From Basidiobolus meristosporus CBS 931.73 (Eukaryota > Basidiobolomycota > Basidiobolomycetes > Basidiobolales > Basidiobolaceae): DNA of 64,000 nt. Location of the stretch: positions 32,655-96,654 of the forward strand of contig MCFE01000317.1 in NCBI GenBank assembly GCA_002104905.1, given 5' to 3'. This document shows positions 26,531 to 64,000 of the stretch, piece after piece. The translations under genes were made by a program, and so were the position numbers. Within the stretch, counting starts at the first letter, position 1. Each line of letters starts with the position of its first letter. The notes beneath the pieces are model-generated. The model was given only the letters and a program-made list of their open reading frames with translations, did no database searches and was not told the origin of the DNA.

Positions 26531-28501
26531 TTAACAGTCATTGGGGATCAAGAAGCTCTCTTGACGGACACCTCCACCCCATGGAGTACCACCGACTAAT
26601 TTGGCATCCAGCCCCAGGCCGCGCTTAGCGAAGGCTTTCCAGATCTCGCAGTAATTCTCTCCCCCAGTTAGTAGGTCGTCCGCATGGATGATCGCATCTC
26701 GGGCATCCACGAATTTGGGTCGGCATGGCTGTAGCTTCATCCCGTCAAGGACCAGCTGAAGCGCCAAGGTGTTCCCGTGTCTGAGCGAGGCAGAGTACCA
26801 GTCCGAGGTGAAGCCGTACTTGTCAACCAGGTTCCAGTACATCTCATACAGCATCTCAGCCCAAACACCCCCTTTGGCGTGGACGCCCCAGTAGTTGGCC
26901 TTGTCCATGATGGAGTAGGTCTCTGGGTTGGTGATGTTGTTGGTGGAGTACTTGAAGTATCTGATGTTTTTCCCGCCATTGGCGTACTCGCCCATGCCAA
27001 GGTCGAGTCGGCGGTCGTCGTCGGGTCTCATGCGCAGAATGGTTGCGAAGAAATCTCCCCACCCTTCACCCATCCCGCCGGCCTCTCCCCAGCCAAGGCA
27101 TCCGCTGTTGGCAGGGCCGCCAGTCAGTCGAGTGGAGATACCATGGGTGTACTCATGGATCATGATCCCGCTCTCCAGGTCGCCGTCACGATGAGGCTGT
27201 ATAACATTCCAGACGTACATCCTCATCTTGCCTTTCATGCCGTCGGGCGGGGTTGCGAAGTTGGCATTGTTGTAGCCACTGCCGTCCTGCGCATTGGCAA
27301 TCACCGCGTCCCCCGATTCGCCACCGCGGCCGAAATTGTTGTCTTGGAAGTTGCCCGCAGTCTCGGTGAATCCGTACTGATAGCTGAGATCATGCATCAC
27401 GTTGTTCCAATAGAAGAGGTTGGTGATGGAGGAGTCGAGATAGGACTTTGGGTTCCGGTGCAGGTCCAGGGTGAAATCAAAGAGCAGGTGATCTCCTCCG
27501 TGAGGGCGGTAGTTGGTTTCCCATTCATAGCCACCCTCGATGTTCTCATGCGCGGCCACATTGTTTCCAATGGTGGTGGAGAAATTGCGGCGGCCGAGTG
27601 AGTGCCATCCCAGCGGGCTGGCCCGCTTATTTTCGGGGTTGGATACCAAGCGTCTGCTCCCTTCATCAGGATCGTTGATTCCGAGGGGGTAGACATTATA
27701 GTGGGCGTCTGAAACCCAATCAATGAGGGACATGACCTGAGCATTTTCGGCGGAAACATGCGCGTGATACCAATTATCGTTCATCTCCACTTGGAAATCC
27801 CAAACCGGGTGTAGCTCTCCTTCGGACGTCTGGATATAGGCCAATGAAGTGGGCACTTGATTGTTGACGGTAAATGGAACTCCCTGGATCATGTACACCG
27901 AGTCTTTTGCGCTGCCCGAGACCTTCTCTACCTCTAGTGTGGTGACATCGCTGACCTCGATCTTCAAGTGCTCCGCGAGGGCAAGCAGCGCATCGCGAGG
28001 AGGAACAGTAGGCTGTGGTGAGGACTTGAATGAATTTAACTTCCTGAACACGACCTGGCCAAATGGGCTGGCGAAGTTATCCTGGAGCTTGTTCACGGCA
28101 TCAAAGAATTTGTTCGTGGGGGGTATCAATCCTTTGTAGAAGGAATCGCCGTAAGATACTACGCGGCCATACTTGTCAAGATTGATGTTCATGTCTCCAT
28201 TGACTACCTCCAGACCATGGACGATCTGTCGAAGGTACACGTGGGTTGCGCCGTTGTGTTCCGACTGATACATGTTCTTGACAACATAGTCGCTCTCCTT
28301 GAGGCTCAAGGTGTCCTGGATGAACTTTTTGACCACGTTGCTCGGCTCCTCCAAGGAAGAAGGCGTGAATCCCGACTCCGCCGAAGAGACCTGATAGCTG
28401 CTGCTGGAGATTTCAGGGCCAAACGTGGGCTCGTGGATCCGCCCCGCTACCACACTGAGAGACAGCGAGAACAGAAGGGGCAGTACAATACAGTTACGCA
28501 T
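26531..28501 (-). CDS. Fungalysin, secreted M36 metallopeptidase
   Basis: Single exon of 656 residues. The ATG at 28501 is chosen because it starts a clean signal peptide (MRNCIVLPLLFSLSLSVVAG); an in-frame upstream GTG at 28555 is not needed. A propeptide with an FTP-type domain (ATHVYLRQIVHGLEVVNGD) covers roughly residues 60-230. The mature peptidase has the zinc motif HEYTHGIS at about residues 447-454, followed by GGMGEGWGDF with the third zinc ligand, and a C-terminal ARDAIIHADD block. Fungalysins are secreted extracellular elastinolytic/keratinolytic proteases made as zymogens. A TATATAA on the minus strand near 28668-28674 could be its TATA box. Confidence 0.95.
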   Translation of the reverse strand: MRNCIVLPLLFSLSLSVVAGRIHEPTFGPEISSSSYQVSSAESGFTPSSLEEPSNVVKKFIQDTLSLKESDYVVKNMYQSEHNGATHVYLRQIVHGLEVVNGDMNINLDKYGRVVSYGDSFYKGLIPPTNKFFDAVNKLQDNFASPFGQVVFRKLNSFKSSPQPTVPPRDALLALAEHLKIEVSDVTTLEVEKVSGSAKDSVYMIQGVPFTVNNQVPTSLAYIQTSEGELHPVWDFQVEMNDNWYHAHVSAENAQVMSLIDWVSDAHYNVYPLGINDPDEGSRRLVSNPENKRASPLGWHSLGRRNFSTTIGNNVAAHENIEGGYEWETNYRPHGGDHLLFDFTLDLHRNPKSYLDSSITNLFYWNNVMHDLSYQYGFTETAGNFQDNNFGRGGESGDAVIANAQDGSGYNNANFATPPDGMKGKMRMYVWNVIQPHRDGDLESGIMIHEYTHGISTRLTGGPANSGCLGWGEAGGMGEGWGDFFATILRMRPDDDRRLDLGMGEYANGGKNIRYFKYSTNNITNPETYSIMDKANYWGVHAKGGVWAEMLYEMYWNLVDKYGFTSDWYSASLRHGNTLALQLVLDGMKLQPCRPKFVDARDAIIHADDLLTGGENYCEIWKAFAKRGLGLDAKLVGGTPWGGGVRQESFLIPNDC

Positions 28502-28684
28502 GGCCAAAACAAGCGGGGTGGAAGCAAAATTCGGGAGATCAACAAACAAGAGCACTGTCTAGTAAAGGAAAAAGAAGAGAGGATTTGCTCGAATGTTGGT
28601 GGTAAAAGATAAGAGAGGCCCAGATCAGGAGTGTTCTAAATGAGTTGTTAAAAGGTGGATCTTCACGTTATATAGTTGCGGGAT

Positions 28685-51371: not shown

Positions 51372-51734
51372 CATGATATAGCCACAAAACAGCAGTCTGA
51401 CGACTAATCAAATCATCTGATGCATTATTTAAAGTAGTGCGAAGTTCATCAATTTAATCATTAAAGGGGCTTTAATTATGATCCTTCAGTATGTCTCCAG
51501 TACTTCTTAATTTACTCTTGGTGTAAAATGTCATCATTAAGCATCAGGAATCGAATAGATATCAAATGTGTATAAATGGAAGGTGGCGGACAATGAACAC
51601 TGGCGAGATTGGTACTTGGATTTTTTTGGTTAACATTTAATAGCAAAATCTGATTTTTATAATGTGTTATAGAGTAGAGATGAATTTGGCTGCTAATAAC
51701 CATACAAATTGGCATCAATAATTCAATGGTTAAG
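51372..51734. other. Flank between last gene and retroelement array
   Basis: AT-rich, without genes. The array begins where ttaagcaggggggg appears near 51731. Confidence 0.5.
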
Positions 51735-51796
51735 CAGGGGGGGTCACAATCACCAACAGATAAAATCTTTATTTCAGTAACTCAAAATAAAGCATT
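51735..51796 (-). mobile_element. Unit 1: degraded retroelement 3' end
   Basis: About 60 bases that keep only the shared 3' module. A run of seven G is followed on the plus strand by a decayed caccaacagat hairpin and a sound CTTTATTT/AAATAAAG stem. It ends where the next unit's TTAGGG begins. It is the oldest-looking unit of the array. Confidence 0.6.
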
Positions 51797-51836
51797 GGGG
51801 TTAGGGTGGATGAAAGGCACCAAGTGATGAAATCAT
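51797..51836 (-). mobile_element. Unit 2: very short degraded 3' end
   Basis: Begins with ggggttaggg and holds a worn copy of the terminal hairpin (caccaagtgatgaaatc), then is cut by the next G-rich junction. About 40 bases. Confidence 0.5.
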
Positions 51837-52288
51837 AGGGGGAGGGAATGCTTGGGGAGACAGTCACCAACAGGTGAAATCTTTATTTCAGTTGAAACAA
51901 AGAAGCCAGCACTACTGTTGTAGCTTTGTTACAAGAGCATGTAGCTGAGGGGAATTTGTAGGTAAGTTTACAGGAAGTGATGATGGTTCTTCAGTGCTCA
52001 AGACACTGTTCAGTGGGAAGGGGGGTAGCAAGAGGGGTAAGAATGATTTGTGAGCAACATTAATGAGGGGAATATGATAAGGATTGATATTCATCATAAA
52101 GGGAGTGTGCTGCTGCAGATATTGCTGCCAAAAGTCTGTCAAGTACTTCAGGTAGGCCAGCTTGGGTTTTTCTGACTGCAGAATATAGTGAGCAAACTTC
52201 TTGACTTCAAGATCTCTAAGTATAGTTCTCCAGCAGGAGCCAGGTGTAGTGTGGTGTGTTCTCTTCCAGGTCTTGAATAGTGGATTGT
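51837..52288 (-). mobile_element. Unit 3: LINE family A, 5'-truncated
   Basis: Has the family A 3' end (agacagtcaccaacaggtg on the plus strand) and then the last part of ORF2 (about 125 codons from near 52288 to the stop at 51912, starting at LFKTWKRTHHTTPGSCW). Identity with units 7 and 9 stops at ggattgttt where TTAGGGTTAGGGG of the next unit starts, so the 5' part was never copied or was lost. Confidence 0.85.
51912..52285 (-). pseudogene. LINE-A ORF2 C-terminal fragment
   Basis: Open frame encoding only the region after the reverse transcriptase domain, with the conserved HHTTPGSCWRTIL and HTPFMMNINPYHIPL blocks. The frame runs on upstream through the TTAGGG junction into the neighbouring unit, giving a meaningless leader. 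Confidence 0.8.
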
Positions 52289-52777
52289 TTAGGGTTAGGG
52301 GAGGGAAAGTCACCAAGGTAGGTGAAATAATTATTTGATTTCAGACAAGTCTAACTACAAATAAAGAAGCCAGCTGGGAATAGAAGATTCCCAAAGTGAA
52401 CACTAAGTTGAATATGAATAAATCTAGCTAAAGTTAAGGCAGTATCCCAAAGTACACTGGAGCTCAGGTTCATGGGGGAGTGAAGTAGATAAGCTTGAGA
52501 GATATAATAGTCTTTGAGGAAGTGGGTAACAGCAGGTGAAGGGGAGTTTTTGATAAGTGAAGTGAATTTTGAGAGCAGAGATTCCTCTAATGAGAAGGTC
52601 TTGTAAACTGGAGAATCAGGAAACTCTTTAAAGGCATGGTCAGTAGGTTCCCAGTAAAGCTGGTCCAAGACATTTTGAGAGAATTGTTTAGCAATACTTT
52701 TGTCAAGTACTACCTCTAGAGTGTGATGGTAGATAAATCTCATGTTAACAATCTTGGATAAATTGTAACCTTGTTGC
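52289..52777 (-). mobile_element. Unit 4: ORF1-only retroelement (family D), 5'-truncated
   Basis: About 490 bases: a 3' module whose sense-strand hairpin is TTATTTG/CAAATAA with an inner AGAC/GTCT stem, and an ORF1-like C-terminal coding part (stop at 52351). No reverse transcriptase lies between the ORF1 part and the 3' end. Junction sequences on both sides carry TTAGGGTTAGGG. Confidence 0.75.
52351..52775 (-). pseudogene. ORF1-like fragment of unit 4
   Basis: About 140 codons related to the ORF1 of unit 12: TLEVVLDKSIAKQF, FSLEESLLSKFTSL, NSPSPAVTHFLKDYY and LLHSPMNL are shared in pattern. The stop falls inside the 3' module. The N-terminal coiled coil is missing. Confidence 0.7.
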
Positions 52778-54631
52778 TTAGGGTTAGGGGGAGGGAAAGT
52801 CACCAAGTTGGTGAAATCTTTATTTAAGAACTAATCTAAGTACAAATAAAGAAGCCAATTAAGAGGTCTAGAACCTCTCTAATAAGTAATCTAATTTATG
52901 TTTTGTTTCATCTCTAATGTTTGTTTCAATAAAGTAAAGCTCATCAGGGGTAAATATAAAATTCAGGGGTTTTGGGGGAAGTACAAATTGTAGATGTTTC
53001 TGATCAATATAATCCAAGACTGGAACCCAGCCTGGGATTAGGTGTAGTAGGAAAGGTGTGTGGACTTGTAAGTAGCTCTGCCACATAGATCTTAGATGGT
53101 CCTGAGCCAGTAGTCTTGGTTTCTCAGCTTTTTGAAGTTTTGAAGCAAGCTCTGTTACTACAGCAGAGCCAACCAGGGTGTGCCAGCAAGAAGATTTCAG
53201 GGAGGAGTTAGATTGAAGCCATTGTTTGATGGAGGGGCTATGTGATTTCTGAAGTTTGACTAGGAAGGAAGCCCGGAGATAGATCATTTGGATTTGGTAT
53301 GGGTAGAACCCAAAGGCTCCATTAGTTGCATGGATATAGGGAGATACTGGAAGATAAGGTACCAAGGATCTGATACACTGATGGAGAAATTTATCCAGGC
53401 GGTGAAGTTCTCTGGAGGTTAGGGGTATAATGTGGAGACCAAATTCAAGTACCAGCAGTACATACTGCTTCAGAAGTATAGGGATCTTTTGAATTGGAGT
53501 GTCTGGAGTGACTACTACCAGAAGCTTTTTGAGAGCCTGTTGGGCAAGATGGATCCTATTATTCAGGTGGAGCTTTGAGTCAATCCCATGTTGACAATAC
53601 GGCAGACCTAGATATATTGCAGTTTGTTGTGGCAGAATGCTAGTGTTCTGTATAGTTGTAGTGCATCCAATTGGGACTGTCTTGGAAATTGAGAGTGAGA
53701 GGTTGTTGGCAGCCAAGTACTTCTCAATGATGGCAGTGTCTGCTATGGGATTAGGAGTAGCAATCTTGATATCATCCGCATAGAGAGTTAGTAGTGGATA
53801 GGGAGAGTCTGGTGAGGGGCCTTTTGGAAATAAAGGAAAGTCATGTAGGAATATCACAAATAGTAAGGGACCTAGTACAGATCCTTGGACTACTCCATTT
53901 GGAACCTCATAAGTCTCTGATGTACAACTTGGATGCAAAATTTTGGCTGAGTTCTCACAAAATAGAGAACATACAGGAAGGGTCATTGGTAGTGTGGTAA
54001 CTGCTAATAGCTTTCTCCAAAGCAGAGCTCTGTCCACAGAGTCAAAGGCTTTAGTAACGTCAAACAGAATGGTTGGCAATGAGAATTGAAGTGAATGATC
54101 ATGGCTTAGCACTACAGCCATATCCAAGGAGAGTTTGGGCAAGAAGCCAAACTGAGAAGGATGGAATGGATATAGTTAAGATTGCAAGGATCTTGCTATT
54201 ATAAGCTCAAAGATTTTCCAGCAGGTTGGTAGGAGTGAAACTGGCCGGTAAGAGCCTGGGAGTGAGTGTTTCCCCTTCCCTTTGTATAAGGGTATTACAT
54301 TTGCCTGTGACCAGGCCTTTGGGGTAGTCAATTGTTGGGCACAGATAGAGTAGAATGGGAGAAGTAAGTGACTCATTTTGGAGTAGCACACCCGGAGTAG
54401 ATTGTAGTTAATCAAGTCATGTCCAGGTGCAGTATTTGCAGGAAGCTTCTTTAAAATTTTCTCCAGAAGCTTTGCTGAAACCAAAATTGGAGATGTTGGA
54501 CTGCTAGATATGCTACCAGTATGGTAGAAAGGAGGAGTGGGATGTACGGTTGAATCAAAGAATATAGGGGCCAGTTTGTCTGGTGATGGTATACTCCTTG
54601 CTTGGGGTCTCATGGCTTAGTATACTCTTGA
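52778..54631 (-). mobile_element. Unit 5: LINE family C, 5'-truncated
   Basis: About 1.85 kb, with the 3' module (TCACC/GGTGA hairpin and a nine-pair TCTTTATTT stem in the sense strand) and the reverse transcriptase half of ORF2. The endonuclease and ORF1 are missing because the unit is cut near 54625 by the next TTAGGGTTAGGGGG junction. Confidence 0.85.
52868..54613 (-). pseudogene. LINE-C ORF2, reverse transcriptase part, with one internal stop
   Basis: The frame runs from about 54613 to a stop at 52868 and is broken only by one TAA near 54173-54175 in the same frame. Motifs: TAPGHDLINYNLL, YRPVSLLPTCWKIFELI, LFDVTKAFDSVDRALLW, VPNGVVQGSVLGP, the catalytic YADDIKIATP and YLGLPYCQHG. It is clearly different in sequence from family A, so several LINE lineages share this array. 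Confidence 0.85.
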
Positions 54632-55144
54632 TTTAGGGTTAGGGGGAGGAAAGTCACCAAGTGGTGAAATCTTTATTTACTTATGACAAGTATCTAAAGA
54701 AGCCAAGTTAATCTGAAGTTATTCCTAGAAAGCTAGGTCTGAGAGATATCTTCCTTGTAAGCCAGGTCTGAGAGTTAAGAGGCTGAGTGGTACTGTATTT
54801 CCTAATTAGCTAGGTCTGAGAGAGGTTTCCTGGAAAGCCAGGCCTGAGAAGTGAGAATCTGAATATATCTGAGTAAAGTTAACTGGTTTGCGGTAGCTGA
54901 ATTGTGGCCGGAATGGCCAGTAGACTGGGGGAACTGAGAGGAATTTCTGGGTGATCACTGGCCAAATTTACTAGGACAAATCTGGCCAATTAGCATTTCA
55001 AGGATTTCAGCCAATCAGAGCCTTTACTTTGCCCAATGGTTGATCAAGCCATCTCCCAATGAGCACACATCAACTTATTAATCAAATTTTGCTGGATCCA
55101 GGATTTGAACCCACAACCATGGGTATGGAAGGGTTAGGGATAAC
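54632..55144 (-). mobile_element. Unit 6: tRNA-derived SINE (family B), slightly 5'-truncated
   Basis: About 510 bases without coding capacity. Reading in the sense (minus) direction: a tRNA-like head with the B box GGTTCAAATCC near 55100-55112, a body, four loose repeats of AGCYAGGYCTGAGAG (in plus-strand sense), and the shared 3' module with TCTTTA/TAAAGA and ACTT/AAGT stems. Compared with unit 10 it lacks the A box because it is cut at gggataac by the next junction. Confidence 0.8.
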
Positions 55145-57915
55145 TTAGGGGGGGGGGGGAGACAGTCACCAACAGGTGAAATCTTTATTTCAGTTGAAAC
55201 AAAGAAGCCAGCGACTACTGTTGTAGCTTTGATACAAGAGTGTGTAGCTGAGGGGAATTTGTAGGTAAGTTAATAAGAAGTGATGATAGCTCTTCAGTGC
55301 TCAAGACACTGTTCAGTGGGAAGGGGGGTAGCAAGAGAGGTAAGAATGACTTGTGAACAACATTAATGAGGGGAATGTGATAAGGATTGATATTCATCAT
55401 AAAGGGAGTGTGCTGCTGCAGATATTGCTGCCAAAGGTCTGTCAAGTACTTCAGGTAGGCCAGCTTGGGTTTTTCTGACTGCAGAATAAATTCAGCAAAC
55501 TTCTTGACTTCAGGATCTCCAAGTATAGTTCTCCAGCAGGAGCCAGGTGTTGTGTGGTGTGTTCTCTTCCAGGCCTTAATCAGTGGGTTGTTGCAGTTGT
55601 GAAGTCTGAGGTATAATCTGGTTCTAAGGTAGAGAAGTCTGATCTTATAGGGCATAAACCCAAAAGCACCAAGAATAGCATGTCTGTAGGGGCATTCAGG
55701 CAAATGAGGCACCAAGGAGGTAATGCACCATACTGCAAACTTGTCAAGCTTAGTGCAGTCTCTAGAAGTAAGAGAGAGAAGTGGTAAGCCAAATTCCAGG
55801 ACAGGGAAGACAAACTGCTTGAGTAGAAGGAGGCAGCTGGGAGCTGAAGTTGTAGGAGGAGTAACAGCCAGTAGCTTGTGGAGTGCCTGTCTTGCCAGGA
55901 TAATTCTCTTCTTCAGGTGTGCTCCAGAGTCTAGTCCAGTAGGAAGGAAAGGAAAGCCAAGATATGTAGCAGAAACCTGAGCAGGTAGAGTGGAGTTCTC
56001 CAAGTTGATGGGAGAGCCCAAAGGTACTGTCTTTGCAATGGAAAGCTGGAGATTATTCTTCTGCAGATACTGGTGGATGGTCTGGGAGTCTTGTTGCACA
56101 TTGGAGGAGGATATTCTGATGTCATCAGCAAAGAGAGTAACCAGGCAGTCAGCTGAGAGTCTTGGGAAATCATTCAGGAAGATGGCAAACAGTATAGGAC
56201 CAAGCACAGAGCCTTGAACCACTCCATTAGGAACTGAGAACACAGCTGATTGCTCACTTGGGTGCAGAATTCTTGCTTGTGGATCCAGAAACAGAGACCT
56301 GACAAGGAGGGTGAGAGAGGTACTGGAGAAGCATTGCAACTTGGACCAAAGCAGATTTCTGTCAACTGAATCAAAGGCCTTAGTAATATCAAACAGAACT
56401 GAGGGATACTTGCACTGGAGAGAGTGATCTTGGCTAAGTATGACTGCATATTCCAAGGAGAGGCCAGGAACAAAGCCAAACTGTGCAGGATGAAACTTGA
56501 GGGAGTCAGAGTAGAGCTCCTGAGCAAGCAGAAGCTCAAACACCTTTCTGCAGGTGGGCAGCAGAGATATTGGCCTGTAGGAGCTAGGATCCAGGTGCTT
56601 TCCTTTACCCTTGTACAGTGGCAGAACATTTGCAAAGGACCATTCCTCAGGAGTAGAAAGCTGGGCTGAGCATTGCTGAAACAGTGGAAGCAGAAGTGCA
56701 GACATGGCCTTGGTACTAGTCTTCAGAAGCTCATAGGAGATTGTGTCCACACCTGGAGCAGTAGAGTTGGGAAGCCTCTTGAGCACATTATGGATTCTCC
56801 TTTGATCAAGTGCAAGTGGGATGGGCAGAGTCTTGAAGTCAGGATGAAAGCCAGGAGTTGAGTACTGCTTTGTAGAGAAGAAGATGTTAGCCAGCTGTTC
56901 TGTTGAAGGTAACTTCCTGGAAGAGGGCCTCATTGCCCTGTAGAGTCTTGATACTGTTCTTGTTATAGAGTTGGAAGATTGCAGAGGCAAGGAACTCATA
57001 ATATGATCCCAGAGCTGAGTATGCAGAGTGTGGTGAATTGCCTTGGAGTGGTGTATTGCTGTCAGGAGGAGTTTCTCTGTTTTTGGGTTAGGGAAACTCA
57101 GGTAGCTTTGTTGCAGGGCTGAAACAATGGATTCCCATTTTCTTGAGGTAACAGCAGTAGTCTTGCATGGCAGTGAGAGGGAGGCAGACACCAGAATCAG
57201 ATGCTTCACAAAGAGCCAGGCATAGTTGAGATCATCTGGCAGAGAAAGTAGCAAACTGGCAAGCTTCAAGTAGTTCCCAAAGTCTTTCTTCTGATTCTTG
57301 GTAGCTTTGTGGGTGAGCACAGTAAGTTTTGGCAGCTTCTTCTTCACAACTGGTTGCATAGAAAGGGACCAGGCTGGGTGGTCAGAGGCTCTCAAGGATC
57401 CTAGCTCAGCTCCAGAGAATTGCTTAACTTCATTCACAAAGTAGAGGGCAGCAGCAGAAGGGCAGATCCAGTCAACACATCTTTTCTCAGATTGAGCACC
57501 CAGTGCTAGCAGATGGCTTTCTCTCAGGAAGTTCAGTAGGAATGTAGACCTTGGCTTCATTCTTGCAGTCAGAGTAGTCTTGTTCTCAGGATGGGGAATG
57601 TTGAGATCTCCAAGCAAGATAACAGGTGTTGATATAGATTGCTGGTATTGCTGAACTTCTGGCATATAACTTGCACTTCCTGAAGGGCAAGACTTGGAGG
57701 CAGATAGCAGAGCACCAGACTGATAGTTGGCAACTGGAGAGCAGCACAGTAAGGGAGTAAAGAGGAACACAGAGCTGAGGAGTATTGATGGTAGAAGAGA
57801 TGAAGCAGATAGAGGAGGTATTCTTTGTTCTAGGAGTAGAAAAGCAATATAGATTAGTCAAAAGTATAGAGGGTAGCTGGACATCAATCAAACACAGGAG
57901 GAAATCTGAAGAGTC
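55145..57915 (-). mobile_element. Unit 7: LINE family A, missing ORF1 and the first ORF2 codons
   Basis: About 2.77 kb and nearly identical to the matching part of unit 9. Its 3' end joins TTAG plus twelve G, the longest G run in the array. The 5' cut lies some 20 codons into ORF2 near 57900, where cttaggg of the next unit begins. Confidence 0.92.
55215..57891 (-). pseudogene. LINE-A ORF2 of unit 7 (endonuclease plus reverse transcriptase, frameshifted)
   Basis: The frame is open for about 830 codons from near 57700 to the stop at 55215 and covers the rest of the endonuclease (VILLGDLNIPHPENK, VDWICPSAA, RASDHPAWSLS) and the whole reverse transcriptase (STAPGVDTISYELL, YRPISLLPTCRKVFELL, LFDITKAFDSVDRNLLW, VPNGVVQGSVLGP, LFADDIRISSSN). 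Two one-base differences from unit 9, near 57655 and 57748, put the endonuclease N-terminus in another frame. Confidence 0.88.
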
Positions 57916-57970
57916 TTAGGGAAAGTCACCAAGTGTGAATCTTATTGAGTTAAGAACATCTAGGTACAAA
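57916..57970 (-). mobile_element. Unit 8: 55-base 3' stub
   Basis: TTAGGG, then gaaagtcaccaagtgtgaatc and about 30 further bases of a family C-like 3' end, then the next GGGTTAGGGG. It shows a copy that stopped within the first 55 bases from its 3' end. Confidence 0.7.
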
Positions 57971-58036
57971 GGGTTAGGGGGGAGACAGTCACCAACAGGT
58001 GAAATCTTTATTTCAGTTGAAACAAAGAAGCCAGCG

Positions 58037-60791
58037 CTACTGTTGTAGCTTTGATACAAGAGTGTGTAGCTGAGGGGAATTTGTAGGTAAGTTAATAAGA
58101 AGTGATGATAGTTCTTCAGTGCTCAAGACACTGTTCAGTGGGAAGGGGGGTAGCAAGAGAGGTAAGAATGACTTGTGAACAACATTAATGAGGGGAATGT
58201 GATAAGGATTGATATTCATCATAAAGGGAGTGTGCTGCTGCAGATATTGCTGCCAAAGGTCTGTCAAGTACTTCAGGTAGGCCAGCTTGGGTTTTTCTGA
58301 CTGCAGAATAAATTCAGCAAACTTCTTGACTTCAGGATCTCCAAGTATAGTTCTCCAGCAGGAGCCAGGTGTTGTGTGGTGTGTTCTCTTCCAGGCCTTA
58401 ATCAGTGGGTTGTTGCAGTTGTGAAGTCTGAGGTATAATCTGGTTCTAAGGTAGAGAAGTCTGATCTTATAGGGCATAAACCCAAAAGCACCAAGAATAG
58501 CATGTCTGTAGGGGCATTCAGGCAAATGAGGCACCAAGGAGGTAATGCACCATACTGCAAACTTGTCAAGCTTAGTGCAGTCTCTAGAAGTAAGAGAGAG
58601 AAGTGGTAAGCCAAATTCCAGGACAGGGAAGACAAACTGCTTGAGTAGAAGGAAGGCAGCTGGGAGCTGAAGTTGTAGGAGGAGTAACAGCCAGTAGCTT
58701 GTGGAGTGCCTGTCTTGCCAGGATAATTCTCTTCTTCAGGTGTGCTCCAGAGTCTAGTCCAGTAGGAAGGAAAGGAAAGCCAAGATATGTAGCAGAAACC
58801 TGAGCAGGTAGAGTGGAGTTCTCCAAGTTGATGGGAGAGCCCAAAGGTACTGTCTTTGCAATGGAAAGCTGGAGATTATTCTTCTGCAGATACTGGTGGA
58901 TGGTCTGGGAGTCTTGTTGCACATTGGAGGAGGATATTCTGATGTCATCAGCAAAGAGAGTAACCAGGCAGTCAGCTGAGAGTCTTGGGAAATCATTCAG
59001 GAAGATGGCAAACAGTATAGGACCAAGCACAGAGCCTTGAACCACTCCATTAGGAACTGAGAACACAGCTGATTGCTCACTTGGGTGCAGAATTCTTGCT
59101 TGTGGATCCAGAAACAGAGACCTGACAAGGAGGGTGAGAGAGGTACTGGAGAAGCATTGCAACTTGGACCAAAGCAGATTTCTGTCAACTGAATCAAAGG
59201 CCTTAGTAATATCAAACAGAACAGAGGGATACTTGCACTGGAGAGAGTGATCTTGGCTAAGTATGACTGCATATTCCAAGGAGAGGCCAGGAACAAAGCC
59301 AAACTGTGCAGGATGAAACTTGAGGGAGTCAGAGTAGAGCTCCTGAGCAAGCAGAAGCTCAAACACCTTTCTGCAGGTGGGCAGCAGAGATATTGGCCTG
59401 TAGGAGCTAGGATCCAGGTGCTTTCCTTTACCCTTGTACAGTGGCAGAACATTTGCAAAGGACCATTCCTCAGGAGTAGAAAGCTGGGCTGAGCATTGCT
59501 GAAACAGTGGAAGCAGAAGTGCAGACATGGCCTTGGTACTAGTCTTCAGAAGCTCATAGGAGATTGTGTCCACACCTGGAGCAGTAGAGTTGGGAAGCCT
59601 CTTGAGCACATTATGGATTCTCCTTTGATCAAGTGCAAGTGGGATGGGCAGAGTCTTGAAGTCAGGATGAAAGCCAGGAGTTGAGTACTGCTTTGTAGAG
59701 AAGAAGATGTTAGCCAGCTGTTCTGTTGAAGGTAACTTCCTGGAAGAGGGCCTCATTGCCCTGTAGAGTCTTGATACTGTTCTTGTTATAGAGTTGGAAG
59801 ATTGCAGAGGCAAGGAACTCATAATATGATCCCAGAGCTGAGTATGCAGAGTGTGGTGAATTGCCTTGGAGTGGTGTATTGCTGTCAGGAGGAGTTTCTC
59901 TGTTTTTGGGTTAGGGAAACTCAGGTAGCTTTGTTGCAGGGCTGAAACAATGGATTCCCATTTTCTTGAGGTAACAGCAGTAGTCTTGCATGGCAGTGAG
60001 AGGGAGGCAGACACCAGAATCAGATGCTTCACAAAGAGCCAGGCATAGTTGAGATCATCTGGCAGAGAAAGTAGCAAACTGGCAAGCTTCAAGTAGTTCC
60101 CAAAGTCTTTCTTCTGATTCTTGGTAGCTTTGTGGGTGAGCACAGTAAGTTTTGGCAGCTTCTTCTTCACAACTGGTTGCATAGAAAGGGACCAGGCTGG
60201 GTGGTCAGAGGCTCTCAAGGATCCTAGCTCAGCTCCAGAGAATTGCTTAACTTCATTCACAAAGTAGAGGGCAGCAGCAGAAGGGCAGATCCAGTCAACA
60301 CATCTTTTCTCAGATTGAGCACCTAGTGCTAGCAGATGGCTTTCTCTCAGGAAGTTCAGTAGGAATGTAGACCTTGGCTTCATTCTTGCAGTCAGAGTAG
60401 TCTTGTTCTCAGGATGGGGAATGTTGAGATCTCCAAGCAAGATAACAGGTGTTGATATAGATTGCTGGTATTGCTGAACTTTCTGGCATATAACTTGCAC
60501 TTCCTGAAGGGCAAGACTTGGAGGCAGATAGCAGAGCACCAGACTGATAGTTGGCAACTGGAGAGCAGCACAGTAAGGGGAGTAAAGAGGAACACAGAGC
60601 TGAGGAGTATTGATGGTAGAAGAGATGAAGCAGATAGAGGAGGTATTCTTTGTTCTAGGAGTAGAAAAGCAATATAGATTAGTCAAAAGTATAGAGGGTA
60701 GCTGGACATCAATCAAACACAGGAGGGAAAATCTTGAAAGAAGTCTCTCTAGAGTTGGTCTTGATGGCTGTATGCTGTTGCAGTTAAGCAA
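58037..60791 (-). pseudogene. LINE-A ORF2 of unit 9 (APE endonuclease and reverse transcriptase, one frameshift near the end)
   Basis: About 918 codons. The endonuclease begins with LNCNSI only eight codons after the ORF1 stop, has GDLN at about residues 120-123, VDWICPS and RASDHPAWSLS; the usual glutamate (QET-type) motif is not seen, the matching place reading LCLIDVQLPS. Reverse transcriptase motifs are all present, with FADD as catalytic site. No RNase H domain is evident. One extra base near 58651 relative to unit 7 puts the last 205 codons out of frame. No ATG occurs before the endonuclease core. Confidence 0.9.
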
Positions 60792-60806
60792 CAGAACTTC
60801 AGGTAG

Positions 60807-62000
60807 TCAGGCAGAGGTTGTAGCTTCTTCAGAGGCAGCATTGACAATGTGACCTGCAGAGTCCCAGAGCTCTTCAAATGGTGCATCACTTAAGTCAGCA
60901 AGGAGGGAAATGGCATGATTCTTGAGGAAGTATGCCACATCATAGGAGGGGGCTTGTCTCTTGATGGCAGCAAAGAAAGACAGAATGGCAACATGGGCTG
61001 GAGGCTTGTTGAACAGTAGAGAGTCAGAGGATTCAGATTCTTCAGGCACTATCTTGAAGTCAGTTTTCAGCCAGTTAAGGTTCTTCTCCACAAAGGCAAC
61101 AAATGGGTCAGCAATGTTTTGGTCTAGGATAACCTCCAGAATCTTCCCTTTTCTCCAGGCCAGGTTGACAATTCTTGAGAGCTGAATATTGCATGCCTTG
61201 AGTGCTTTCCTGATGTTGGAAATGGGAGTCCAGGGAACTTGCTTCAAGTACACCACAGTCCAGGTAGAAGCTGGTGGTAGGTTTGCTGGGGGCTTGTAAG
61301 TCCTTCTGTGTTGCAATGGAGCTGCAGTAGTCAGATTGGAGTCCACATTCTCAGTAGAGGGTTTTCTTGATGTGTCTTGCTGAATGGTACTGGAGCTGGA
61401 TGTGCTGATAATTCTTGCTAGAACCTTGCCTGCATAAGTCTGAGGTATAGCTGAGGTGACTGTAGAGGTGGTGGCAGCTGGTGCAGGTGGAGAGGCAGAA
61501 ACTGAAGCAGGAACTGAGGTCACCTGGGAGAAGGCAGTAGAAGCAGGTTTTCTGGGAGGAACAGAGTTCACTATCCAGTTGTTCTGTAAAACACTGGAGT
61601 AGCTTTTCTGTGGAACAGGATCTTGCTCTTGAACAGGAACAGAAGCAGGAGGCTGGGGCTGAGCAGTAGTGGTAAGGCAGTGGCACTCCAAGGAAGCTTT
61701 TTGCAAGGCATCTCTGGCAGTTTTCAGGGCAGTATTGGCTTCATTCTTGAGCTTCTTGCATTGGGCATCCAGTCTCTTGTTTTCAATAGCCAGGGCAGTA
61801 TTGGCAGCCTCTAAATCAGCAATTCTCTTCTCAATTGCAAGGAATCTCTGAAGAAATGCATCAGTAGAAGTGCTGGCATCTGGGAGAGCAGTGGCAGGAA
61901 TAGAGTCCATTGACAGTGGGCTTCTTGGAGGCAAGGAAAGTGGACTGGCAGATTCAGGCACAAAAGGAGATATCCTGGCAGGAGGAGAAGGAGTATCCAA
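60807..62000 (-). CDS. LINE-A ORF1 (coiled coil plus RRM-like RNA-binding protein)
   Basis: About 397 codons open. Proline- and serine-rich start, then a coiled coil (FLAIEKRIADLEAANTALAI, ENKRLDAQCKKL), a low-complexity middle, and a C-terminal domain with WTVVYLKQVPW, ALKACNIQLSRIVNLAW and KILEVILDQNI, resembling an RRM-like fold. No CCHC knuckle is visible. The first ATG in frame is near 61910 (MDSIPATALPD). It ends with TGA at 60809-60807 followed by CTA, in the same frame as ORF2. Confidence 0.82.
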   Translation of the reverse strand: MDTPSPPARISPFVPESASPLSLPPRSPLSMDSIPATALPDASTSTDAFLQRFLAIEKRIADLEAANTALAIENKRLDAQCKKLKNEANTALKTARDALQKASLECHCLTTTAQPQPPASVPVQEQDPVPQKSYSSVLQNNWIVNSVPPRKPASTAFSQVTSVPASVSASPPAPAATTSTVTSAIPQTYAGKVLARIISTSSSSTIQQDTSRKPSTENVDSNLTTAAPLQHRRTYKPPANLPPASTWTVVYLKQVPWTPISNIRKALKACNIQLSRIVNLAWRKGKILEVILDQNIADPFVAFVEKNLNWLKTDFKIVPEESESSDSLLFNKPPAHVAILSFFAAIKRQAPSYDVAYFLKNHAISLLADLSDAPFEELWDSAGHIVNAASEEATTSA

Positions 62001-62099
62001 GGCAGTAACAGAGGCAATTCTTGTTGGTGAAGCAGCAGCAGGGGAGGCAAGCCTGTTCAGAAACTGGCAGGAGAGAGTGCTTGAGGAGAGGAGTCTTCA

Positions 62100-62631
62100 G
62101 GGTTAGGGGGAGGAAAGTCACCAAGTGGTGAAATCTTTATTTACTTATGACAAGTATCTAAAGAAGCCATGTTAATCTGAAGTTATTCCTAGAAAGCTAG
62201 GTCTGAGAGATATCTTCCTGGTAAGCCAGGTCTGAGAGTTGAGAAGCTGAGTGGTACTATATTTCCTAGTTAGCTAGGTCTGAGAGAGGTTTCCTGGAAA
62301 GCCAGGCCTGAGAAGTGAGAATCTGAATATATCTGAGCTAAGTTATACTGGTTTGCGGTAGCTGAATTGTGGCCGGAATGGCCAGTAGACTGGGGGAACT
62401 GAGATGAATTTCTGGGCGATCACTGGCCAAATTTACTAGGCAAATCTGTCCAATTAGCATTTCAAGGATTTCAGCCAATCAGAGCCTTTACTTTGCCCAA
62501 TGGTTGATCAAGCCATCTCCCAATGAGCACACATCAATTTATTGATCAAATTTTGCTGGATCCAGGATTTGAACCCACAACCATGGGTATGGAAGGGTTA
62601 GGGATAACCACAAGGCTAAGTGTTCTTGGTT
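62100..62631 (-). mobile_element. Unit 10: tRNA-derived SINE (family B), most complete copy
   Basis: About 530 bases. In the sense direction the head carries an A-box-like TAGCCTTGTGG (plus-strand 62608-62619) and a B box GGTTCAAATCC (62565-62575), the spacing of a tRNA-type RNA polymerase III promoter. The A box has one mismatch to consensus. The head includes CCCTAACCC between the boxes. The body matches unit 6 at nearly every base, and the 3' module is shared with the LINEs. Confidence 0.82.
62565..62620 (-). promoter_or_regulatory. Internal pol III promoter (A and B boxes) of the SINE
   Basis: Read on the minus strand: TAGCCTTGTGG, about 33 bases, then GGTTCAAATCC. These match the tRNA D-arm and T-arm promoter boxes. 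The cloverleaf stems are imperfect, so this is a tRNA relic rather than a tRNA gene. Confidence 0.65.
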
Positions 62632-62913
62632 CTTAGGGGTTAGGGGGAGACAGTCACCAACAGGTGAAATCTTTATTTCAGTTGAAACAAAGAAGCCAGC
62701 GCTACTGTTGTAGCTTTGATACAAGAGTGTGTAGCTGAGGGGAATTTGTAGGTAAGTTAATAAGAAGTGATGATAGTTCTTCAGTGCTCAAGACACTGTT
62801 CAGTGGGAAGGGGGGTAGCAAGAGAGGTAAGAATGACTTGTGAACAACATTAATGAGTGGTGAATGATCAACTAAACATGTTCTGAAGGGGAAGATTGAG
62901 TAGGCTACCTGAT
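62632..62913 (-). mobile_element. Unit 11: LINE family A, 3' 210 bases only
   Basis: Same as the 3' end of unit 9 as far as aacattaatgag near 62857, then about 55 bases of unrelated sequence before the next GGGTTAGGGGGGG. Strongly 5'-truncated. Confidence 0.85.
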
Positions 62914-63793
62914 GGGTTAGGGGGGGATGATAATCACCACAAGGTGAAATCTTTATTTAAATCATAAATAAAGAAGCCAAATTTGAATATGAATAGTTGA
63001 GATGCAGAAAGCCTACAAGATAAACTTGGACTTTGCTGTATCCCAAATATCCTCAATATTGAAGTCTAGAGGAGAATGTAGCAAAACTGCTTGTTCACTG
63101 TAGTATTTCTTGAGGAAGTTTGTGACTTGAAGGGAAGGAGAGTTTTTCAACAAGCTGGTAAACCTTTTGAGGAGTTCTTTTTCCAGAGAGAATGGCACAA
63201 ACAGTGGAATGTCCAAATGATGTCTGAATATATGCTCTGAGAGCTCCCAATCCAGCATATTTTTGACTTCTTCTGTAAAATCTTCAACAATATCTTTGTC
63301 AAGAATAACTTCCAAGAGATCCCTGGCAATGTACTGAATGTTAATAATCTTAGGCATATGAATACCTAGGTCCTTGAGGTAGTTTCTTTGTTCTGAAATT
63401 GGGAGATAGCCAGCATTTCTGAAATAGCAAACAGCCCAATTGGTAGTGGGAGGAGTATCAGGGCTGACAGGGAATCTTCTTCTAGCTTTAGGGTGCACTG
63501 GCTTAGGTGACTGTCTTGTTGAAAGGGCAGCTGGCTTTGGATGAGCTTGAAGTGCTTGGGAGCATGTCTGAGTATGAATGGCAGGAGTTGCTGGTTGCTG
63601 ACAGTGGTCAGATTGACTGGAAGAAGAGCTGGTTGAGGGGTTGCAAGGTAAGGAAGAAGCTGAAAGAGAAGTAGAAAGTGCTGGATGAAGTTCAGAGAGA
63701 GTTTTGAAGAGAACCTGAATCTGAGATTTCAACATTGAGTTTTCAGCTTCAAGAAGAGAAACTCTTTGTTCAAGATAAGAAGTCTGTAAAGAG
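62914..63793 (-). mobile_element. Unit 12: ORF1-only retroelement (family E), 5'-truncated
   Basis: About 880 bases: ORF1 directly followed by about 85 bases of 3' UTR. The 3' module has a perfect ten-pair stem (tctttattta at 62950-62959 with taaataaaga at 62965-62974). The ORF1 frame is intact until its truncated start at the next junction. No ORF2 is present. Confidence 0.8.
63013..63793 (-). CDS. ORF1-like protein of unit 12, N-terminally truncated
   Basis: About 260 codons without any stop or shift. A coiled coil (LEQRVSLLEAENSMLKSQIQ), a serine-rich linker, then the RRM-like WAVCYFRNAGYLPIS, KIINIQYIARDLLEVILDKD, and the tail FSLEKELLKRFTSLLKNSPS. It corresponds to the ORF1 of unit 9 in layout but not closely in sequence. 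The reading continues upstream through the junction of unit 13, which is not part of the original gene. Confidence 0.75.
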
Positions 63794-63943
63794 TTAGGGG
63801 GGAGGAAAGTCACCAAGTGGTGAAATCTTTATTTACTTATGACGAGTATCTAAAGAAGCCAAGTTAATCTGAAGTTACTCCTAGAAAGCTAGGTCTGAGA
63901 GATATCTTCCTGGTAAGCCAGGTATGAGAGTTGAGAAGCTGAG
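63794..63943 (-). mobile_element. Unit 13: SINE family B, 3' 150 bases only
   Basis: Same tail as units 6 and 10, with one change in the hairpin (gacgagtat). Cut after the second ctgagag repeat by the next TTAGGGGGG. Confidence 0.82.
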
Positions 63944-64000
63944 TTAGGGGGGAGGAAAGTCACCAAGTGGTGAAATCTTTATTTACTTATGACAAGTATC
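63944..64000 (-). mobile_element. Unit 14: SINE family B 3' end, continues beyond the window
   Basis: TTAGGGGGG and the family B 3' module run into the right edge, so the array goes on to the right. Confidence 0.75.

Follow-up and report, generated by a model that had tools for sequence, protein, structure and literature searches.

What builds a chromosome end on which retroelements lie head to tail with TTAGGG motifs between them? This question is raised by the right-hand part of a 64,000-nucleotide stretch of the genome of Basidiobolus meristosporus CBS 931.73 (contig MCFE01000317.1, here C555, positions 32655-96654; referred to as the window), the right edge of which coincides with the end of C555. 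The protein encoded at 26531-28558 of the window is 100% identical to K493DRAFT_325562 of this strain over 87% of the query. Direct reading resolved positions 51731-64000 of the window into 14 head-to-tail units, every one with its 3' end to the left, as had been claimed in a preliminary description of this DNA, which counted at least 14 units in one orientation. These units belong to long interspersed nuclear elements (LINEs), to a family resembling short interspersed nuclear elements (SINE-like) and to families that contain only the first open reading frame (ORF1-only), and all of these carry one 3' module. We consider it probable that such arrays are chromosome-end arrays which have grown outward by retrotransposition, with the natural end mostly serving as the primer and telomerase supplying the caps.

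A TTAGGG motif begins 12 of the 14 units, the exceptions being the unit at 51731 (G-run only) and that at 51845 (TTGGGG only), and the TTAGGG boundaries listed in the preliminary description were all found again within a few bases. A script-based scan of the 64 kb for the 3' core motif gave 11 matches on the plus strand, starting at 51865, and none on the minus strand; it misses three units with a deviating module (51731, 51795 and 52288), which brings the count to 14. Matches to TTAGGGTTAGGG with at most one mismatch number seven in the window, all on the plus strand, where 0.19 would be expected (seven were reached in none of 100 shuffles); five of these lie at unit boundaries and two (57082 and 59905) within LINE-A. 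The internal sequence of LINE-A at 57082-57093 and 59905-59916 is TTTGGGTTAGGG. The skew of G over C is about zero before 52 kb and 0.2-0.3 thereafter. The array has no terminal cap in the window and runs into the assembly end of C555. From left to right it is composed as follows, the last line giving one example of the 3' module.

51731..51794, minus strand: innermost unit, 64 nt, with a degenerate 3' module; left junction a G-run only
51795..51844, minus strand: degenerate 3'-end fragment, 50 nt, stub TTGGGGTTAGGG
51845..52287, minus strand: 3' fragment of a LINE-A with truncated 5' end; TTGGGG as stub, no TTAGGG
52288..52777, minus strand: ORF1-only unit of family B', stub TTTAGGGTTAGGGG; the ORF1-like frame adjoins the 3' module
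52778..54631, minus strand: LINE-B fragment with reverse transcriptase (PF00078, E=5.9e-14), stub TTAGGGTTAGGGGG
54632..55144, minus strand: SINE-like unit with slightly truncated 5' end, stub TTTAGGGTTAGGGGG
55145..57915, minus strand: LINE-A, 5' truncated within the endonuclease region (PF00078, E=2.5e-25)
57916..57966, minus strand: B-type 3'-end fragment, 51 nt, stub TTAGGG
57967..62095, minus strand: LINE-A, nearly full length, ORF1 and ORF2 (frame broken)
62096..62631, minus strand: SINE-like unit, full length, stub CAGGGTTAGGGGG
62632..62913, minus strand: LINE-A 3' fragment joined to the 5' end of the SINE-like unit, stub TTAGGGGTTAGGGGG
62914..63793, minus strand: ORF1-only unit of family D, stub GGGTTAGGGGGGG; ORF1 homologous to that of LINE-A
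63794..63943, minus strand: SINE-like 3' fragment, stub TTAGGGGGG
63944..64000, minus strand: 3' end of a SINE-like unit that the contig end interrupts
57967..58040, minus strand: shared 3' module, with two predicted hairpins and AATAAAG, a pyrimidine-rich spacer and a C-run joined to the telomeric motif

The nearly full-length LINE-A contains ORF1 at 60807-62096 and, within 58037-60806, an ORF2 with endonuclease and reverse transcriptase (RT), the frame of which is broken; a second LINE-A copy of 4.56 kb lies at locus L039 (3549-8108). LINE-B is represented in the window by the RT fragment at 52778-54631. In families D and B' an ORF1-like frame stands directly beside the 3' module with no ORF2 between them, the ORF1 of the D unit being homologous to that of LINE-A (E=2e-18) and that of B' sharing 48% identity over 114 amino acids with the D-unit ORF1. 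The SINE-like unit measures about 520 nt, has no long frame and possesses a constant 5' end, where a 21-nt stretch has 209 exact copies genome-wide (199 forward, 10 reverse). Near this end lies GGTTCAAATCC, which we take to be a B-box-like motif; it is the sole hint of a tRNA origin and the reason for the SINE label, and no tRNA head was matched in the unit by ARAGORN or Rfam. The SINE-like unit also has an internal GGGTTAGGG not far from its 5' end (62595-62603 in the window).

In RNA sense the families end in TGGCTTCTTT...AAATAAAGATTTCACC(loop)GGTGA, followed by a pyrimidine-rich spacer and a C-run. Two hairpins are predicted in this module by single folds and by the RNAalifold consensus of an alignment of 14 chosen sequences, of which the oldest (51731) deviates; the single-fold z-scores are strong for LINE-A (-5.1) and D (-3.8; pieces of 65-67 nt). 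The modal G-run at the junction is 5 for the SINE-like family (19 of 42), 6 for LINE-A (13 of 31) and 4 for B and B' together (5 of 8), which fits a telomeric GGG followed by two, three and one element-specific bases, respectively; a constant spacer of 9 nt would separate the second hairpin from the junction. Poly(T) on the plus strand at the 3' end occurs in none of the 83 junctions listed, and a poly(A)-type tail was thus not encountered there.

If such units are added to chromosome ends, the module should be followed by TTAGGG throughout the assembly and point to contig ends in one polarity, as the preliminary description had proposed, and the assembly supported both. The exact SINE-like module occurs at 410 places of the whole assembly (387 forward, 23 reverse), with TTAGGG within 6 nt at 339 of them (322 forward, 17 reverse), and the exact LINE-A module at 653 places (610 forward, 43 reverse), with TTAGGG within 8 nt at no more than 535 (505 forward, 30 reverse), a slightly high figure as 5 of the first 100 listed were one place counted again. 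With three mismatches allowed, the 28-nt SINE-like module was found at 1107 forward and 93 reverse places. Contig sizes were bracketed via rank, the contig numbering apparently being a string-sorted size rank, with which 42 known sizes are monotone. Among the first 100 of the 410 SINE-like places listed, 49 on contigs of rank 199 or below were informative, and these belong to 32 contigs with sizes of 130 kb or more, none of them being farther than 18.3 kb (upper bound) from the end to which it points; the remaining 51, on contigs of no more than about 20 kb, tell little. For the module of family D, with 96 genomic copies at up to two mismatches, all places could be considered: 94 of 96 are nearer to the contig end pointed to, the exceptions lying on C45 (19 kb) and C1086 (35-42 kb). 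On contigs of at least 50 kb all 71 D-module places point outward (64 forward, 7 reverse), the upper bound of the distance being 25 kb or less for 65 of them, with the other six on poorly bracketed contigs, and none of the 11 reverse places is more than 5.8 kb from a left contig end. Many copies in unique sequence and in mixed orientation, the pattern that would have refuted such addition, were not seen; target-site duplications were not sought as such. On C424 (at least 312 kb) units lie in reverse at 141 and 669 and forward at 311582 and 312331, and this contig may therefore be a nearly complete small chromosome. Runs of (TTAGGG)4 number 7428 forward and 81 reverse in the whole assembly, so that the orientation of the contigs is one-sided.

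The junctions themselves were characterized in a set of 83 from the loci examined. The script found a full TTAGGG in 75 of them, at least two repeats in 26 and at least three in 12; one of the eight scored without TTAGGG, at 57916 in the window, does contain it, the script having assigned it to the element. Stubs including the G-run have a median of 12 nt and a maximum of 44, and 66 of 83 do not exceed 18 nt. Uniform insertion along tails of the 11 observed lengths gave, in 5000 simulated sets, a mean of 8 and a maximum of 19 such short stubs. In three cases A or TA plus a G-run follows directly upon non-telomeric DNA (C204:3039, in L039; C52:16205; C204:10513), and where a G-run without TTAGGG forms the join, as at C204:3039, C52:16205 and 51731 in the window, the element itself seems to have healed a broken end. 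Where a stub comprises several repeats, variant ones at times included, telomerase appears to be its source. At 95 of the 209 exact SINE-like 5' ends a single TTAGGG leads into the 3' end of the next unit, which is of LINE-A, SINE-like or B type; these hand-overs fit manufacture by telomerase or copying from RNA.

Truncated ends were compared with other copies of the units. A reference copy continuing past the junction was available for 57 of the 83 junctions, the other 26 being left unscored for want of a usable reference; once full-length SINE ends and junctions with less than 40 nt of continuing sequence had been set aside, 38 truncated junctions were tested, and in none was the missing remainder found beyond the next unit in the DNA of the loci examined. 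Eight continuations turned up in that search, all parts of separate copies. Leaving aside the ends of full-length SINE-like units, 59 left ends remain, and no two of them agree in the last 14 nt. Microhomology to TTAGGG at truncated ends averages 1.55 (n=38, from 40 junctions with the values 11 and 15 left out and negative overlaps set to 0) against 0.75 expected, the largest of 3000 null means being 1.37; an earlier mean of 1.85 was dropped as biased by the choice of the farthest-reaching reference. Very short units exist, of 51 nt in the window and with core-to-core spacings of 56 (C204), 69 (C77) and 72 nt (C83), and look like abortive synthesis. An age gradient along the arrays was looked for and not found; the SINE-like part of that comparison is biased by the use of perfect-match loci.

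At 11 of the 13 contig right ends examined, most of which had been chosen for matching a unit or TTAGGG and which therefore form a biased sample, the arrays run out into 53-247 nt of TTAGGG repeats (median 196 nt, n=11), and the other two, C95 and C555, stop inside a unit. On C21, C52, C77 and C83 the cap follows directly on the 5' end of a SINE-like unit. The (TTAGGG)4 places listed come from four contigs, C1, C2, C21 and C22, and all four carry units. Contig C880 encodes the telomerase RNA-binding domain PF12009, matched above cut-off as two neighbouring pieces, one of which contains an in-frame TAG; its presence means that there has been no Drosophila-like loss of telomerase. The domain (C880:173109-173423) and a retroelement unit (C880:190504) are some 17 kb apart, so the telomerase gene may be subtelomeric. 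As regards the integrity of this gene, the list of open reading frames of locus L071 holds only two frames of at least 80 amino acids.

The sequence itself shows the polarity (the antisense strand of a unit continues a TTAGGG strand directed at the chromosome end), the terminal position, the stubs, the truncation, the caps, the shared module and a telomerase domain. Priming of reverse transcription on the telomeric G-strand would account for the polarity, the terminal position and the lack of nesting, and the following course of events can be proposed. The LINE RT, an L1/R2-like enzyme with a domain resembling the apurinic/apyrimidinic endonucleases (APE), would recognise the 3' RNA module, that is, the two hairpins and the C-rich end, whether carried by the LINE's own RNA, by the SINE-like RNA of about 520 nt or by ORF1-only RNAs. 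The C-rich RNA end would be set against a G-rich telomeric 3' end (...GGG-OH), mostly, we infer, a natural end with few repeats and not a nick within a telomere of normal length, and the RNA would be copied from its 3' end. The G-strand would thereby be extended as TTAGGG stub followed by antisense cDNA. Copying would often stop early and leave truncated units, among them those of 50-75 nt, and the new end could take up either the next retroelement or an extension by telomerase, presumably the source of the TTAGGG cap, so that repeated rounds would build the array. More tentatively, and with the odds rather against it, the LINE protein might act as a second, template-rich telomerase on natural 3' ends, with no need of its divergent endonuclease and with the SINE-like RNA as an exchangeable lengthening template, telomerase and the ribonucleoprotein alternating; the SINE-like cDNA appears to end in GGTT and could therefore pass to telomerase or to the RNA of the next element.

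Several observations weigh against outward growth on natural ends. The single-fold z-scores are weak in the other three families (-0.6, -0.8 and -1.5), no better than shuffles, and RNAalifold found no compensatory changes among the 14 sequences (covariation term 0), so that the fold of the 3' module is predicted and not proven. At 12 of the 83 junctions the stub holds at least three repeats, and breakage of long interstitial TTAGGG tracts would be another source of short stubs. No divergence gradient was found along the arrays, although nearly all copies there are near-identical. Whether a stub stems from telomerase or from RNA is not told apart by sequence alone, and the PF12009 match, split and with its TAG, is no demonstration of an intact telomerase reverse transcriptase gene. 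Finally, several endonuclease motif residues are kept, which leaves room for nicking. As to the statement of the preliminary description that this fungus adds LINEs, SINEs and ORF1-only units to its chromosome ends, polarity, terminal position and the TTAGGG tails sustain the addition, while priming on the natural end is unproven and the SINE label stands without support from ARAGORN or Rfam.

The five closest relatives of ORF2 show 49-85% identity, the next being LINE proteins with 21-38%, and ORF1 has six relatives, one of them named, from Basidiobolus ranarum. At the start of LINE-A ORF1 (L039, 6910-7953) there is a CPNC...CKC motif similar to a zinc ribbon. The window ORF2 matches RVT_1 with E=1.7e-25 and an APE-type endonuclease weakly; the matches of the domain before the RT to PF14529/PF03372 are below the Pfam cut-off, and it aligns with APE-type LINE endonucleases. 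When canonical APE-type LINEs are aligned with the window copy and with P0001 and P0002, the two relatives that include the region, these three show Asp in the catalytic Glu column, lack the GGG and PT motifs and keep YLPP, GDLN, VDW and SDH. A reading as a dead endonuclease was dropped because the Asp aligns to the catalytic Glu. An AlphaFold model of the ORF2 relative P0001 (mean pLDDT 82, pTM 0.67) retrieved human L1 ORF2p first in a structure search, R2 next and ExoIII/APE entries lower, the latter probably matching its N-terminal part, as judged from entry size and alignment. No endonuclease other than the APE-like one was found in ORF2 by Pfam, the C-terminus having had no dedicated profile search for restriction-like endonucleases (REL). 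Judged by the alignment motifs and the structure matches of the P0001 model, the element is an APE-type LINE with a divergent, putative endonuclease.

TRAS and SART insert into the telomere tract in an endonuclease-dependent manner. By analogy, an endonuclease could nick a normal TTAGGG tract here and start target-primed reverse transcription, the stubs being short because proximal repeats are favoured or because long interstitial tracts break afterwards. Such dependence has been proposed for FoTeR (PMC12857005), a truncated MoTeR1 lies one TTAGGG from the junction of telomere and ribosomal DNA, and MoTeR tracts of at least three repeats are unstable (PMC7367193); as long interstitial tracts of MoTeR break, stub length alone is not decisive. 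The APE-like domain has moreover retained its GDLN and SDH motifs. Against this stand the Asp in the catalytic Glu column and the missing GGG and PT motifs in the three sequences aligned, stubs that are far shorter than the tails, and the joins at C204:3039, C52:16205 and C204:10513 to non-telomeric DNA without a full repeat, so that we regard nicking as unlikely, while according it real weight.

The arrays might have spread mainly by recombination (break-induced replication, unequal exchange or tandem duplication) from a few founder arrays and not by repeated reverse transcription. Recombination of these types has been described in MoTeR arrays (PMC7367193), and five consecutive SINE-like units on C96 might recall it; the stubs nevertheless differ between consecutive SINE junctions on C96, as do all 59 left ends described above, and as the main source of the arrays recombination seems very improbable. 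It is scarcely credible that the arrays arose through faulty assembly, or that a common dispersed LINE/SINE family ending in a (CCCTAA)n microsatellite lies behind them. The oddly one-sided contig orientation (1107 forward against 93 reverse places) would suit such a reading; the 11 reverse D-module places next to left ends, the reverse units at the left and forward units far to the right of C424, and the TTAGGG tails that terminate arrays would not.

Arrays of this kind are already known from TRAS/SART, MoTeR and FoTeR, and the fungal APE-type version with its dependants appears to be new. A literature search, with most subscription papers outside its reach, did not bring up any work dealing with retroelements at the telomeres of Basidiobolus or Zoopagomycota. 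PMC10088271 lists SART/TRAS, GilM/GilT, Zepp1, MoTeR1, Tx1-1_ACar and Athena as telomeric elements; the word SINE is absent from its main text and from that of the FoTeR paper (PMC12857005), and the passages on SINEs in PMC4700185 make no mention of a telomere-specific one. The present arrays record with unusual clarity that retroelements and telomere repeats contribute to the same chromosome tips. Since the RNAs of LINE, SINE-like and ORF1-only families have a 3' signal and a destination in common, hundreds of junctions are available from which to derive the rules of 3'-end recognition and telomere priming. An old question also becomes accessible to experiment in a single organism: in what way a retroelement RT and telomerase divide a chromosome end between them, and whether a natural DNA end can serve a LINE without cutting.

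TRAS and SART have an APE-type endonuclease and poly(A) tails joined to the telomeric repeat. An APE-like domain with a LINE RT is likewise found here, though with Asp in the catalytic Glu column, whereas the 3' end is hairpin-bearing and C-rich without poly(A). As described for Bombyx and Tribolium, TRAS and SART are LINEs residing in telomeric repeats beside telomerase-type repeats, as here, but are R1 families oriented oppositely to each other (PMC10088271), while a single direction prevails in our arrays. The likeness to HeT-A/TART/TAHRE of Drosophila lies in head-to-tail arrays at chromosome ends with the 3' ends towards the centromere (PMC10088271). Those arrays are unlike ours in that retroelements replace telomerase; here there is a telomerase domain (PF12009 on C880), TTAGGG caps and a telomeric motif at most junctions. 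Gag-only units stand beside gag-pol units in HeT-A/TART/TAHRE, and families D and B' provide such ORF1-only elements here. The endonuclease-deficient Penelope-like elements Athena and Coprina also have 3' junctions with short telomeric stretches; the RT found here, in contrast, matches LINE RTs, not a Penelope-type RT, and is preceded by an APE-like domain. In stringent LINE/SINE pairs such as UnaL2 and ZfL2 a common 3' stem-loop tail is recognised by the LINE protein (PMC4176376). Our families share their 3' sequence in the same way, the stem-loop being predicted from 14 sequences and its recognition by protein presumed, and differ in that the tail leads into a telomeric repeat and the destination is a chromosome end.

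The closest fungal counterparts are MoTeR1 and MoTeR2 of Magnaporthe oryzae and FoTeR of Fusarium oxysporum, telomere-resident elements without long terminal repeats that also occur as truncated copies (PMC7367193; PMC12857005). MoTeRs form arrays in one orientation with the 5' end outward and short TTAGGG tracts between units, and MoTeR1 and MoTeR2 share 3' sequence (PMC7367193), as the families do here. FoTeR 3' ends typically carry 3-7 repeats (PMC12857005), against a median stub of 12 nt in total length at our junctions. Unlike in MoTeR and FoTeR, SINE-like and ORF1-only families take part in the present arrays. Residence at chromosome ends with the 5' end outward is thus common to both; the restriction-like endonuclease of MoTeR and FoTeR, which group with Cnl1, SLACS, CRE and CZAR (PMC12857005), is not, an APE-like N-terminal domain being found here. 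While the fungal telomeric elements MoTeR1, FoTeR and Cnl1 thus group with REL-type elements (PMC12857005), Basidiobolus would provide telomere-building retroelements with an APE-type LINE in an early-diverging fungus.

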